Shown piece by piece: positions 32,955-37,610 of a stretch of DNA of 64,000 nucleotides; positions within the stretch are counted from its first letter, which is position 1, and every line of letters starts with the position of its first letter. Below the pieces are notes generated by a model that searched no databases, had not been told where the DNA came from, and saw nothing but the letters and a program-made list of their open reading frames with translations. Position numbers and translations under genes: made by a program. The stretch comes from Actinomycetospora termitidis (GTDB taxonomy: Bacteria; Actinomycetota; Actinomycetes; Mycobacteriales; Pseudonocardiaceae). Where the stretch lies: the NCBI RefSeq assembly GCF_030286555.1, contig NZ_JASVWF010000006.1, positions 372,001 to 436,000 of the forward strand, given 5' to 3'.

Positions 32955-33389
32955 TTACGCCCCGGTGCGCGCCACCAGCCCGGCCGCCTCGATGCCCGCC
33001 ACGACGGCCTCCTCGTCCGCGGTGGAGGCGTCGCCCGACGCGCCCGCGGCCCCGATGACCTCGCCGTCGGCGTCGGTGATGAACACGCCGCCGGGGACCG
33101 AGAACACCTTGCCGCCGGCGAGGGCGGCGACGGAGGTGAAGAACTCCGGGGAGTCGGCGGCGCGCTGGGCGATCGCGCGGCTGTCCATCATCAGCCCGAT
33201 CACGCCGTGGGCCTTGGCGATCGCCACGTCCGGCCGCAGGAAGCCCGACCCGTCGGCCCGGCCCAGCGCCACGAGGTGCCCGCCGGTGTCGAGGACGGCC
33301 ACGGTCAGGGGCTTGTAGCCGGCGGATTCGCCGTGCCGCAGGGCCTCGGCCACGATCGTCGACGCTTGGGAGTAGGTCAGGGCAGTCAT
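32955..33389 (-). CDS. GlcG/HbpS-family (haem-binding-like) protein
   Basis: A 144-residue single-domain protein of the GlcG/HbpS family: ALRHGESAGYKPLTVAVLDT, GHLVALGRADGSGFLRPDVA and VPGGVFITDADGEVIGA. HbpS of Streptomyces binds haem and, as reported, cobalamin; other members are part of diol-use operons. No signal peptide is visible here. It is divergent from the SpoIIE/B12/STAS operon, with about 60 bases between the starts. That neighbourhood makes a tetrapyrrole or cobalamin link attractive, but this is inference. Confidence 0.85.
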   Translation of the reverse strand: MTALTYSQASTIVAEALRHGESAGYKPLTVAVLDTGGHLVALGRADGSGFLRPDVAIAKAHGVIGLMMDSRAIAQRAADSPEFFTSVAALAGGKVFSVPGGVFITDADGEVIGAAGASGDASTADEEAVVAGIEAAGLVARTGA

Positions 33390-33450
33390 GGCCGTCCCAT
33401 TCCCCGCAGGGGCGCCGCTCATGTTGACCGCGGCAGATAGCCTCGGACAC

Positions 33451-35178
33451 GTGGACTCGACGATGCCGGCGGGGGCCCCCTCGCCGACACCGCCGAGGGG
33501 GATGCGCAGCCTGCACTCGCGGGTGCTGGCCGGGCTCTCCGAGGCGGTGGTGGTCACCGGTCCCGCCCGCCCGGGTGGGGCCTACACGATCGTGCACGCC
33601 GCGAACACCGCCGCCGAGCGCCTGCTGCCGGGGATCACCGCCGGCCTCGCCGTCGAGCGCGTCCCCCACGACGCGTTCCGGTCGGCCGTCGCCCAGCAGC
33701 TCCCGGGCTTCGAGGCCGAGGTGGCCGGTCGGGTGCTCGTCGCCCGCGCCGAGCGTCTCGACGACGACGTCCCGCCCGGCGCGGACCTCCTCACCTGCTG
33801 GTACCTGCGCGACGTCACCGACGAGCGCCGCGGGTCGGCCTCGCTGCAGCGCGCCCAGGCCCGGGCCGGGTTCCTCGCCGAGTCCGGGCGCGCCCTGCAC
33901 GGCGTGCTGAACCTGGAGCGGACGCTGCGGACCGCGGCCTCGCTCGCCGCCGGCTTCCTCGCCCCCACCGTGCTGGTGCTCCTCGCCGACGGGTCGGACG
34001 CCGTCCGGTGGGCCCGCGCCGACGCCGGCCGGCCCCGGCCGCACGCCGGCGAGATGACCCGCGTCGAGCTGCGCGCCGCCCCCCGCCTGCACGAGGCCCT
34101 CGTCGAGGAGGCGCCGGTCGACCCGTGGGTGAGCCTCGAGCTCGCCGAGCTGCCGGTGTGGAACGAGCGCCCGACCGGGCGGATCGTCGTCGTGCCGGTG
34201 CCCGGCACCGTCGTCCGGGGCGTGCTGGTGCTGGTCGAGCCGGCCGACGACGAGGACGTCGTCCCGCTCGCCGAGGAGTACGCGACCCGCGTCGGCACGG
34301 CCCTGTCCGCCGCGGCCCTGTTCCGGGAGCAGGCCCACCTCGGCCACGTGCTGCAGGCGAGCCTGGAGCCGCCGCCGCTGCCGGACGACACGCGCGGCGC
34401 GGTCGTCGTCGGGAGCGCCTACCGGCCGGCCCGCGAGAGCCTGCGGGTCGGCGGCGACTTCTACGAGGTCCTGCCGCGCACCGCGGTAGGACGCACGCCG
34501 TTCCTGCTCGGCGACGTGTGCGGCAAGGGGATCGAGGCCGCGGTCCTCTCCGGGCGGGTGCGGCAGTCGCTGCACGCGCTGCGGCTCGTCGAGCAGGACC
34601 CGACGACGCTGCTCGGCCTGCTCAACGCCGCGCTGCTCGACGCCGCCGACCTCGACGCCGCGGTGACGATGCCGCGCTTCGCCACCATGGTCCTGGGCGA
34701 TGCCGAACCCCTTCCCGACGGCGGGTTGCGGCTGCGGCTGGCGACGGGCGGCCACCCGCCGCCCTTCGTGGTGCGCGCGGACGGCACGGTCGAGGAGGTC
34801 GACGTCGTCGGCTCCCTGGTCGGCGCCCTGCGCGACGCCGAGTTCAGCGGCACCGAGGTGCTGCTCGCGCCCGGTGAGACCTGCCTGATCTACAGCGACG
34901 GCGTCACCGAGGCCCGCGGCGGCCCCGGCGGGCGCGACTTCTACGGCGAGGAGCGCCTCGCGGCGGCGCTCTCCGGCTGCGCGGGCGCCCCGGCCCAGGT
35001 GGTGTGCGAGCGCGTCGTGCAGCTCCTCTCGGACTGGCTGGCCGGGCGGGACCACGACGACGTGGCCCTGCTCGCGCTCCAGGCCCCGCCGCGGCCGCGC
35101 CCCGACCGGTCGCGCCCCGACCGACCGTCCCCCCGGCCCCGTCCCCGGCCGGGTCACCCGCCCCGGGAGGCCTCGTGA
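33451..35178 (+). CDS. PP2C (SpoIIE-type) phosphatase with PAS- and GAF-like sensor region
   Basis: A roughly 575-residue partner-switch phosphatase. The N-terminal 120 residues look PAS-like, ending WYLRDVTDERR; a GAF-like region follows at about 140-300. The C-terminal SpoIIE domain has RVGGDFYEVL, LGDVCGKGIEAAVLSG, LATGGHPPPFVV, YSDGVTEARGG and HDDVALL, i.e. the metal-binding acidic residues are kept. It should dephosphorylate a STAS anti-anti-sigma factor, most simply the one encoded two genes downstream. The GTG at 33451 is preceded by GATAGC about ten bases away, suggesting a leaderless start; an upstream ATG at 33421 is possible. The tail is Pro/Arg-rich and overlaps the next start. 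Confidence 0.9.
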   Translation: MDSTMPAGAPSPTPPRGMRSLHSRVLAGLSEAVVVTGPARPGGAYTIVHAANTAAERLLPGITAGLAVERVPHDAFRSAVAQQLPGFEAEVAGRVLVARAERLDDDVPPGADLLTCWYLRDVTDERRGSASLQRAQARAGFLAESGRALHGVLNLERTLRTAASLAAGFLAPTVLVLLADGSDAVRWARADAGRPRPHAGEMTRVELRAAPRLHEALVEEAPVDPWVSLELAELPVWNERPTGRIVVVPVPGTVVRGVLVLVEPADDEDVVPLAEEYATRVGTALSAAALFREQAHLGHVLQASLEPPPLPDDTRGAVVVGSAYRPARESLRVGGDFYEVLPRTAVGRTPFLLGDVCGKGIEAAVLSGRVRQSLHALRLVEQDPTTLLGLLNAALLDAADLDAAVTMPRFATMVLGDAEPLPDGGLRLRLATGGHPPPFVVRADGTVEEVDVVGSLVGALRDAEFSGTEVLLAPGETCLIYSDGVTEARGGPGGRDFYGEERLAAALSGCAGAPAQVVCERVVQLLSDWLAGRDHDDVALLALQAPPRPRPDRSRPDRPSPRPRPRPGHPPREAS

Positions 35179-36221
35179 CCGCTCCCCACCACGCCGGCCC
35201 GCGCACCGATCTCGCGGCCCTGCGGGAGGACTTCCTCGACCGCCTGGCCGCCTCCGACGAGGAGGGCGCGATCACCCTCGCGCTCGAGGCCCTGGACGGC
35301 GGGCTCGACGTCGAGACCGTGCTGCTCGACGTCGTCGCCGAGGCGCAGCGCGAGGTGGGGGAGCGGTGGGCGGCCGGGACGTGGACCGTCGTGCAGGAGC
35401 ACGTCGCCACCCACATCTCCGAGCGCGTGGTCGCCGCGGTCGCGCGCCACCGCCCCGCCGACCCGCCGTCGGGCATCGGGCGCATCGCGGTCGCCTGCCT
35501 CGACGGCGAGTGGCACGCCCTGCCCGCGCGGCTGCTCGCCGAGGTCCTCGGCCGTCACGGCTGGGAGGTCACCTTCCTCGGGTCGAGCGTCCCGGCCGCC
35601 CAGCTGGCGGTGCACCTGCACGAGACCGGGCCCGACGTCGTCGCGATCTCCAGTTCGCTTCCGTCGCGGCTGCCCGCCGCGCGACGCATGGTGGAGGCGT
35701 GCCGGGCGTCGGGCACCCCGATCCTCGCCGGGGGCGCCGCGTTCGGCCCCGAGGGCGAGTGGGCGGGCGCGGTCGGCGCCGACGGGTGGGCCCCGGACGC
35801 GCGGGCGGCCGCCGCGCTGCTGGCCGGCTCCTTCGGTGCCGAGGACGACGGCCGGGTCGACGACACCTCCCGCGAGGAGCAGGCGCTGCTGCACACCCGT
35901 CGGGCCGAGCTGGTCGCCGGACTCGGACGCCGGCTGCGCGCCGACCACGGGCACGACCCCCTGACCGACGAGCAGCTCGCCGACGACCTCGGCCACCTCG
36001 TCGACTTCCTCGCCGCCGCCGTCTACGTCGACGACCCCGGTCTCCTCGCCCGGTTCCTGCGCTGGGTGGGCACGGTCGCGGTCCCCGGCGGCCTCGCCCC
36101 CGCGGAGATCCGGCCCGCGATCGACGACCTCGCGGACCGCCTCGGCGACTCGCCGCGCACCGTCGCGCTGCTCCGCTCCGATCCGGTGCAGGAGGCGTGC
36201 TCGGGGGAGGGCGCCGCGTGA
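35175..36221 (+). CDS. Cobalamin-binding sensor protein with CarH-type Wx9EH motif
   Basis: A 348-residue protein. Residues about 10-90 form the helical cap that precedes B12 domains and contain Trp65, nine residues, then Glu75-His76: the Wx9EH signature of CarH/AerR-type photoreceptors. The Rossmann-like B12 domain follows (about 103-215), with GEWHALP giving Glu112-x-His114 at the place of the lower cobalt ligand, then FLGSSVP, SSSLPSR and ILAGGAAFG. CarH has His right after the Trp (upper ligand in the light state, as I recall); here it is Ala66. A further helical region fills 220-348. No DNA-binding domain is present. GTG start overlaps the phosphatase stop, and its own stop overlaps the STAS start, so all three are co-translated. 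Confidence 0.86.
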   Translation: MTAPHHAGPRTDLAALREDFLDRLAASDEEGAITLALEALDGGLDVETVLLDVVAEAQREVGERWAAGTWTVVQEHVATHISERVVAAVARHRPADPPSGIGRIAVACLDGEWHALPARLLAEVLGRHGWEVTFLGSSVPAAQLAVHLHETGPDVVAISSSLPSRLPAARRMVEACRASGTPILAGGAAFGPEGEWAGAVGADGWAPDARAAAALLAGSFGAEDDGRVDDTSREEQALLHTRRAELVAGLGRRLRADHGHDPLTDEQLADDLGHLVDFLAAAVYVDDPGLLARFLRWVGTVAVPGGLAPAEIRPAIDDLADRLGDSPRTVALLRSDPVQEACSGEGAA

Positions 36222-36559
36222 TCGCGGAGGCACCGGAGTTCGGCGTGCGGATCGAGAAGGAGCAGGGTCCCGACGGCGGGTCGCGGGTCGTCGTCGTGGT
36301 CTCCGGCGACGTCGACTACACGCACGTCGGCGAGCTCGAGTCCGCCGTCGACCACGAGATCGACCGCGCCACGGGTCCCCTGGACCTGGTCGTCGACCTC
36401 GCGGCCGTGCCGTACTGCGACTCCTGCGGCATGCGGGTGCTGCTCGGCGCCTCGCAGCGCGTCGACGGTGGCGGCGGGACGTTCGTGCTGCGGGGGGTGC
36501 ACGGCCAGCCGTCGCGAGCCCTCCGCCTCACGGGCCTGGACCGGGTGCTCGGGGCGTAG
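36218..36559 (+). CDS. STAS-domain anti-anti-sigma factor
   Basis: A 113-residue single STAS domain, RsbV/SpoIIAA type: VVVVSGDVDYTHVGELESAV, LDLVVDLAAVPYCDSCGMRV and FVLRGVHGQPSRALRLTGL. Ser69 in CDSCG is the expected phosphorylation site. Dephosphorylated protein would bind an anti-sigma kinase and free a sigma factor; neither kinase nor sigma gene is in the window. GTG start overlapping the B12 gene stop (GTGA), which ties it to the phosphatase and B12 sensor. Confidence 0.92.
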   Translation: MIAEAPEFGVRIEKEQGPDGGSRVVVVVSGDVDYTHVGELESAVDHEIDRATGPLDLVVDLAAVPYCDSCGMRVLLGASQRVDGGGGTFVLRGVHGQPSRALRLTGLDRVLGA

Positions 36560-36575
36560 GCCCGCCCTGCGGTCC

Positions 36576-36716
36576 CGCGAGAGGTACAGGAGGCACCTTC
36601 GCGGGCGACTCGACGTGCCTCATGTACTTCTCGCGCTCGGAGTAGCGGGTGCGGCATCCGCGAGAGGTACAGGAGGCACCTTCGCGGGCGGTCCGACGTG
36701 CCTCATGTACTTCTCG
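36576..36716. repeat. Tandem pair of long hairpins (family 2, copies 2 and 3)
   Basis: Two near-identical units, 36576-36635 and 36659-36716, 83 bases apart. Each has a left arm CGCGAGAGGTACAGGAGGCAC-like sequence and a right arm GTGCCTCATGTACTTCTCG around a loop beginning cttcgcgggcg. They fill most of the 235-base gap between the STAS gene and the crotonase gene and probably terminate the partner-switch operon. No gene is visible in the gap. Confidence 0.75.
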
Positions 36717-36794
36717 GCGACGTGTCGGGCCGTAGGCGCCCGGTGGGGCGGTCCGGGTTGAGCGCGACCTGCGCCGGGTGATCTAGTCGCCGCC

Positions 36795-37610
36795 ATGACG
36801 TCGTTGCCCGAGAACCTCGAGACCGTCGCCGTCGACCGGCCCGTCGAGCACGTCGCCCGGATCTCCCTGGTGGCCCGCGCGATGGCACCGGCGTTCTTCG
36901 ACGAGATCGCCGCGGTGACGGCGGCCCTCGACGCCGACCCCGGGACCCGCGCCATCGTGATCACCGGCGCCGACGGCCGGTTCTCCTACGGTCTGGACCT
37001 CATGGCGGCGGCCGGGTCCCTCGGCGGGGTCCTCGGTGACCCGAGCGCCGCGAACCGCGAGGCCTTCCTGCGCCACCTGCGGGGTCTGCAGGGCTCGATC
37101 ACCGCGGTCGCGGACTGCCGCACGCCGATCGTCGCGGCGGTCCAGGGCTGGTGCGTCAGCGGCGGGGTGGACCTGATCACCGCAGCCGACGTCCGCCTGG
37201 CCAGCACCGACGCGCTCTTCTCCGTCCGCGAGGTGCGCATGGCGATGGTGGCCGACCTCGGGTCGCTGCAGCGCCTCGTCGGGATCGTCGGCGACGGGCA
37301 CCTGCGCGAGCTGGCCCTGACCGGCGACGACGTCCCCGCCGCCGAGGCGCAGCGCATCGGCCTGGTCAACCGCGTGTACGAGACCCACGACGAGCTGGCC
37401 GGGGCCGCCGTCGAGCTGGCGAGCCGGATGGCCGCGAACTCCCCGCTGGTCACGCGGGGGATCAAGGACGTCCTCGACGCCGAGCGGGGCCCGCGCGTCG
37501 AGGCGGGCCTGCGCTACGTCGCGGCGTGGAACGCGGCGTTCCTGCCGAGCGCGGACCTGCAGGAGGCGTTCACCGCGTTCGCCGAGAAGCGGAAGCCGCA
37601 GTTCGAGTGA
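36795..37610 (+). CDS. Enoyl-CoA hydratase/isomerase, dienoyl-CoA isomerase-like
   Basis: A 271-residue crotonase-fold protein. Its oxyanion segments are DGRFSYGLDLMAA and GWCVSGGVDLITAADVR. The active-site stretch SVREVRMAMVADLGSLQRL has the Glu and Asp pattern of delta3,5-delta2,4-dienoyl-CoA isomerases, which differ from ordinary hydratases by this Asp. The stop overlaps the GTG start of the cyclase-family gene, so the two form an operon. Confidence 0.88.
   Translation: MTSLPENLETVAVDRPVEHVARISLVARAMAPAFFDEIAAVTAALDADPGTRAIVITGADGRFSYGLDLMAAAGSLGGVLGDPSAANREAFLRHLRGLQGSITAVADCRTPIVAAVQGWCVSGGVDLITAADVRLASTDALFSVREVRMAMVADLGSLQRLVGIVGDGHLRELALTGDDVPAAEAQRIGLVNRVYETHDELAGAAVELASRMAANSPLVTRGIKDVLDAERGPRVEAGLRYVAAWNAAFLPSADLQEAFTAFAEKRKPQFE

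Follow-up and report, generated by a model that had tools for sequence, protein, structure and literature searches.

The stretch of DNA analysed here (the window; 64,000 nucleotides of Actinomycetospora termitidis, assembly GCF_030286555.1, contig NZ_JASVWF010000006.1, positions 372,001 to 436,000) carries on its forward strand three consecutive genes, which encode a SpoIIE-type PP2C phosphatase, a vitamin B12 sensor of the photocobilin type and a STAS protein of the anti-anti-sigma type (Table 1). The original prediction, made from the sequence alone, had these genes overlap as one operon, and this was borne out, with neighbouring genes sharing four bases (GTGA) at both junctions. The overlap between the phosphatase and photocobilin genes, together with its start codon, recurs in seven of nine Actinomycetospora loci. 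For the phosphatase, whose open frame extends back to 33388, the GTG start at 33451 is supported by an ATG at exactly the same place, within a conserved stretch, in three aligned relatives from the genus. The source genome (6.56 Mb, 30 contigs) contains only six SpoIIE domains, and the same neighbour was found beside the sensor gene in all 80 named loci, the best-scoring of 543 confirmed, so that the arrangement is not attributable to chance. The nine closest named relatives of the sensor all belong to Actinomycetospora, with identities of 64-85%.

Table 1. Positions of the three genes, their domains and key sites, and a flanking gene, in the window.
Feature	Position	Strand	Basis or detail
SpoIIE-type PP2C phosphatase	33451..35178	+	Pfam SpoIIE; model; start codon by alignment
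Phosphatase, PAS-like region	about 33505-33813	+	modelled secondary structure
Phosphatase, GAF-like region	about 33913-34317	+	modelled secondary structure
Phosphatase, PP2C domain	about 34405-35082	+	
GTGA start/stop overlap, PP2C-photocobilin	35175..35178	+	TGA 35176-35178, GTG 35175-35177
Photocobilin	35175..36221	+	phmmer to SasPcob; AlphaFold2 and Foldseek
Photocobilin, B12-binding helical bundle	35220-35438	+	
Photocobilin, Trp65 codon	35367..35369	+	matches SasPcob Trp61; next codon Ala66 at the CarH His132 place
Photocobilin, Rossmann B12-binding domain	35478-35813	+	
Photocobilin, photoglobin-type bilin domain	about 35862-36203	+	model
GTGA start/stop overlap, photocobilin-STAS	36218..36221	+	TGA 36219-36221, GTG 36218-36220
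STAS anti-anti-sigma-type protein	36218..36559	+	Pfam STAS; TIGR00377
STAS, phosphoacceptor-type Ser69 codon	36422-36424	+	Asp68-Ser69
HbpS-like (PF03928) gene, divergent neighbour of the operon	32955..33390	-	Pfam 7e-25

As judged from its sequence and model, the sensor is a photocobilin of the type represented by SasPcob of Saccharothrix. Pfam assigns B12-binding (2.9e-18) and B12-binding_2 (8.1e-14) domains and leaves the C-terminal third of the protein unassigned. The best solved relative was found by phmmer to be SasPcob (PDB 8j2x/8j2w; E 1.5e-80, residues 13-330), and the AlphaFold2 model, built on an alignment of 38 sequences with a predicted local distance difference test score (pLDDT) of 92, retrieved 8j2w as its first Foldseek match (E 3.1e-25, template modelling (TM) scores 0.83/0.87, 49% identity). 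As 8j2w is the first match of the model, the C-terminal third (residues about 230-343) is read as a globin-like, bilin-type domain; B12-binding and globin-like (photoglobin) domains, the combination that marks a photocobilin, are joined in one chain. The earlier description of the protein as a stand-alone sensor of the CarH type thus stands for the B12 module only, having overlooked the second, bilin-type domain, owing to which red light may count too. Its companion claim, that the sensor has no DNA-binding domain, agrees with the absence of any MerR-type Pfam match. Membership of the CarH family itself was rejected, given that both a MerR-type DNA-binding domain and an equivalent of CarH His132 are missing; the NCBIfam CarH model scored 42.7 bits on the sensor against a cut-off of 400. 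A PHROGs scan of the sensor for a phage origin returned no match. Binding of adenosylcobalamin and biliverdin, together with a response to green and red light, is predicted for the window protein by analogy with the photocobilins of PMC10979010, in which both were shown.

Using the phmmer alignment and the numbering of PMC10979010, Trp61, Glu71-His72, His108, Asp270 and Trp296 of SasPcob were equated with Trp65, Glu75-His76, His114, Asp271 and Trp297 of the window protein, Trp61 being the residue that stacks on the adenosyl ribose. The Wx9EH (Trp65, Glu75-His76) and ExH (Glu112, His114) signatures and the Ala66 noted in the original prediction are all present; Trp65, Glu75, His76, Glu112 and His114 are each kept in 80 of the 80 named relatives, and the bilin-site residues Asp271 and Trp297 in 79 each. 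The light-signature residues GxxW, EH, GxxH and GxxxP, as given in PMC11796333, are each kept in at least 78 of the 80. Position 66 is Ala in 77, Gln in two, Glu in one and His in none, so that the lack of a His132 equivalent is a feature of the clade; the Foldseek matches of the sensor model include the Thermus protein as its H132A variant. We take His132 to be the CarH residue that acts in the bis-His light state. SasPcob has a Gln after its adenosyl Trp, and its light state is described as water- or hydroxide-ligated and monomeric, with no bis-His rearrangement (PMC10979010), which fits the earlier suggestion that Ala66 could alter the light chemistry.

The neighbourhood was searched for across actinomycetes, and the operon was found to recur. 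Neighbours were counted with iterated models, for whose training the named loci served in part, over sets that share some genomes. A same-strand SpoIIE gene immediately precedes the sensor gene in 30/30 family loci (the 30 top matches among 200 family genomes), 80/80 named loci and 13/19 further loci hand-picked from weaker family matches, and a STAS gene immediately follows it in 27/30, 69/80 and 10/19, respectively. A single-sequence search of the 30 family loci placed the phosphatase next to the sensor in every one and a same-strand STAS gene in 25. From a sample of the phylum, in which 17 of 296 genomes (own genome included) match at E 1e-30 and 18 of the 20 non-own matches were fetched, SpoIIE and STAS genes are both adjacent in all seven strong matches (>400 bits). 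More distant photocobilins mostly stand without a phosphatase or STAS context. As a control, the four other genes of the B12-binding family in the own genome have no SpoIIE or STAS gene within 1.5 kb.

Several arrangements depart from this order or add to it. Locus L213 (5042-7299) has a B12 sensor, matched by its B12 domains only, followed by an overlapping SpoIIE frame, which is the reverse order. The photocobilin of L159 (4001-5122, minus strand; same family) is 39% identical to the query, carries a Ser at the bilin-site Asp and is a possible orphan with another output. In all 14 Micromonospora loci among L078-L141, a divergent STAS gene lies upstream of the phosphatase, two such genes being present in six.

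The own genome encodes a heme oxygenase (E 8.4e-47). With genomes classed by the strength of their photocobilin match (strong, >210 bits), the heme oxygenase family PF01126 was detected in 43 of the 54 genomes in the strong class, eight of the 19 in the weaker class and 60 of the 127 that lack a full photocobilin match, counts that are uncorrected for kinship. A second photocobilin group is formed by 11 of the 13 operon-linked further loci (L147-L150, L152-L155, L157, L161 and L162), 32-35% identical to the query. All eleven keep Trp65, Glu75, His76, Glu112, His114 and Trp297 but have Val, Cys or Ala in place of Asp271, an Asp that is retained in L156 and L160, the two remaining linked further loci. 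These residues suggest that the second group uses B12 without biliverdin or binds the bilin otherwise.

The phosphatase (Pfam SpoIIE, 1.1e-41) is modelled as a PAS-GAF-PP2C protein, its PAS and GAF regions being read from the model without a family match that names them. The Foldseek matches of the model (pLDDT 87.9) include SiaA, the RsbU-RsbW portion of Rv1364c and SpoIIE PP2C domains, the PP2C domain of SiaA being the best structural match. GGD, GDVCGKG, SDG and HDD, which presumably represent the metal-site motifs of PP2C phosphatases, are all present, and the protein has the SpoIIE/RsbU-type PP2C domain of a partner-switching system. The STAS protein (Pfam 4e-15; TIGR00377 above cut-off; solved relatives TM1442, RsfB and SpoIIAA) retains the intact Ser site attributed to it earlier, Asp68-Ser69, and 105 of 106 downstream STAS proteins share this phosphoacceptor D-S. 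By its sequence, it is a STAS antagonist with a phosphorylatable Ser, as partner switching demands.

The remaining parts of a partner switch, namely an anti-sigma kinase and a sigma factor, were sought around the 80 named and 13 linked further loci. In the span from 3.3 kb upstream to 2.5 kb downstream, a same-strand HATPase_c_2 kinase gene is present in 14/80 named and 3/13 further loci, and an opposite-strand one in 8/80 and 0/13. Ten of these kinases were scanned (nine on the same strand and the opposite-strand one of L114) and all exceeded the Pfam cut-off, the L126 kinase among the nine being part of a SpoIIE-HATPase-STAS fusion. Fusions of this kind, devoid of a photocobilin, lie near the operon in L126 (3346-5238) and L150 (6536-9238), and presumably resemble Rv1364c in make-up. 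For SigB/F/G sigma genes, the limits were 4.5 kb upstream and 3 kb downstream: four of the 93 loci have one on the same strand (L122, L145, L152 and L161; 2/80 named and 2/13 further), all four being above the NCBIfam cut-off, and two have one on the opposite strand (2/80 and 0/13). By chance, about 0.2 of 93 would be expected, as estimated from 87 above-cut-off genes in 16 genomes (about 128 Mb). Both L152 and L161 display the order sigma, STAS, kinase, phosphatase, photocobilin, STAS; as they share a genus and the second subfamily, three linkage events are safer to count than four. In the own genome, 37 HATPase_c_2 matches and five SigB/F/G genes above cut-off were recorded, and two candidate groups lie on contig C4: STAS-HATPase-sigma at 55.1-56.8 kb, whose kinase is weak (27.2 bits, missed by an own-built model and without an NCBIfam match), and HATPase-sigma at 36.0-37.2 kb. 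The earlier expectation of an anti-sigma kinase elsewhere in the genome has thus gained candidate genes, short of a cognate assignment.

We consider it reasonably likely that the operon is the light-input module of a partner switch, in which the light-driven loss of adenosine alters the action of the photocobilin on the phosphatase and thus the balance between STAS protein, kinase and sigma factor. In the dark, a photocobilin dimer would hold adenosylcobalamin, with His114 as the lower ligand and Trp65 and Glu75-His76 forming the adenosyl pocket, while biliverdin probably sits in the globin domain. Green light via B12, or red light via biliverdin, would break the Co-C bond and release adenosine, upon which the Glu75-His76 helix would shift and the dimer would open, in line with SasPcob being a dimer in the dark and a monomer in the light (PMC10979010). 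The opened photocobilin would then act differently on the PAS-GAF-PP2C phosphatase and change the rate at which Ser69 of the STAS protein is dephosphorylated; the unphosphorylated STAS protein would bind an RsbW-type kinase encoded elsewhere in this genome, and a SigB/F-type sigma factor would be freed. The photocobilin-PP2C contact, the kinase and the sigma target are inferred steps of this scheme. A light-adapted photocobilin was reported to activate a partner enzyme in trans (PMC10979010), and by analogy with the photocobilin AbDPcob, light would raise the phosphatase activity. This direction is tentative, SasPcob loaded with adenosylcobalamin only having shown an effect of light on the test enzyme that was opposite to that of the holo form (PMC10979010). 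The original idea of a B12- or light-gated partner switch with a putative sigma output is supported in part, by the conserved gene order and by the kinase and sigma genes near some relatives.

Apart from that opposite response, a number of observations weigh against this light-input reading. No kinase or sigma gene was found beside the operon in the own genome, and a SigB/F/H-type promoter upstream of the operon was considered and rejected for want of clear enrichment: three patterns of decreasing strictness occur in 0/80, 1/80 and 6/80 loci, against 0.2, 0.3 and 3.1 expected. NCBIfam anti-sigma models match four of five nearby kinases, all below their cut-offs, and leave that of L110 unmatched; L152 and L161, which supply two of the sigma linkages, come from one genus and from the second subfamily that is without the bilin-site Asp. 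As to the chromophore, His137 of the bilin salt bridge in SasPcob is Gln143 in the window protein (position 143 is His in 67, Gln in 11, Arg in one and Ser in one of the named relatives), PF01126 is absent from 11 of the 54 strong-photocobilin genomes, one of them of the same genus (G098), and eight of the 19 weaker-photocobilin genomes do carry a heme oxygenase. As to gene order, the strong series consist of best-scoring loci and hence favour close relatives; of the 11 weaker loci in the phylum sample, only L208 has a SpoIIE gene directly upstream, while in L213, a distant actinobacterium, it is the next open frame downstream. Six of the 19 further loci, L159 included, have neither a SpoIIE nor a STAS neighbour, and no fusion of a photocobilin with a phosphatase or a STAS domain was seen among the loci scanned.

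Alternative explanations were also given consideration. The photocobilin might act mainly on the STAS protein rather than on the phosphatase, holding it or presenting it to the phosphatase or kinase in the manner of RsbR-type scaffolds, RsbR being a STAS-type stress protein. The globin domain of RsbR is treated as a photoglobin homologue in PMC10151467, and the STAS gene overlaps that of the photocobilin and follows it directly in most named loci. It is missing from that place in 11 of the 80, whereas the phosphatase is missing in none, which makes the phosphatase the likelier direct partner and this alternative unlikely. Equally doubtful is a cooperation of the three genes towards an output other than a sigma factor, in which the STAS protein would control a different target, as does SiaC. 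The best structural match of the phosphatase is indeed SiaA, and most named relatives resemble the window in having no same-strand kinase or sigma gene beside the operon; the same-strand SigB/F/G genes near four loci and the same-strand kinases near 14 named ones speak against it. Least probable of all is that the sensor reports the level of adenosylcobalamin or the heme/bilin status, light being incidental and the adenosylcobalamin-bound versus apo state setting the phosphatase, for although apo and dark adenosylcobalamin-bound AbDPcob differ in activity (PMC10979010) and all nine genus loci have a divergent HbpS-like gene next to the operon, the light-signature and bilin-site residues are near-invariant in the named relatives.

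Extending the light-input reading beyond this genome, we give about even chances to a widespread actinobacterial module, in which a B12 and biliverdin receptor would read green to red light, set a PP2C phosphatase in trans and drive a SigB/F-type sigma factor; its second subfamily would have lost the bilin Asp while retaining the B12 site and the operon.

The flanks of the operon hold two further features. The divergent HbpS-like gene, found in 9/9 Actinomycetospora loci, was seen in 0/71 of the other named loci, and that it serves the supply of heme or bilin is no more than a guess. The intergenic stretch after the STAS gene holds two 59-base repeats that are 95% alike and lie 83 bases apart (36575-36716), and the stretch 36555-36800 folds better than 200 of 200 shuffles (z -3.5). 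For a 26-base piece, near copies with three mismatches each were found at three further sites of the genome, so that this may be an interspersed hairpin repeat family.

No paper was found that brings together cobalamin, a photoreceptor, partner-switching and a sigma factor, and in the literature found, SpoIIE is linked with B12 or a photoglobin only in PMC10979010, where SpoIIE and STAS partners of SasPcob are predicted from STRING. The photocobilin type and the prediction of these partners are therefore already known; the present analysis adds that the gene order is nearly constant in the SasPcob-like clade, that the phosphoacceptor is conserved and that some relatives have kinase and sigma genes nearby. 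The operon is real and conserved, and is probably a light-driven input module. The function of stand-alone photocobilins was called less clear (PMC10979010), and the PP2C linkage, along with the SigB/F sigma genes near a few relatives, provides them with a concrete candidate output. If true, light sensing by B12 and bilin would become a further input to the stress sigma factors of bacteria, and a general-stress switch would be gated by the whole visible spectrum; a green/red-controlled phosphatase may also be of use in optogenetics.

Among known systems, the closest is SasPcob of Saccharothrix syringae (PDB 8j2w, 8j2x; PMC10979010), which has the same domain order, 48-49% identity in Foldseek alignments, the same Trp, Glu-His, axial His and bilin-site Asp and Trp, and likewise a residue other than His after the adenosyl Trp, but differs at the salt-bridge position that is Gln143 in the window protein. 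AbDPcob (PDB 8j2y) is a photocobilin-diguanylate cyclase fusion whose photocobilin part matches the sensor (E 3.6e-35) and which has His at the bilin-site Asp position (PMC10979010); its output enzyme is fused, whereas the likely output of the window system is a separate PP2C phosphatase. CarH/LitR proteins (PDB 5c8d, 3whp) share the B12-binding bundle and Rossmann domain, Wx9EH and ExH with the window sensor, which in contrast possesses neither the DNA-binding domain nor the His132 equivalent and carries an extra globin domain. The SpoIIE phosphatase, the STAS protein with its intact D-S and the kinase and sigma genes near some relatives resemble the RsbU/SpoIIE-RsbV-RsbW-SigB/F switches. In YtvA-type LOV-STAS proteins, light input is likewise fed to a STAS system; unlike in the RsbU-RsbV-RsbW and YtvA switches, the light input here would come from a B12/bilin protein that stands apart and is linked to the phosphatase.

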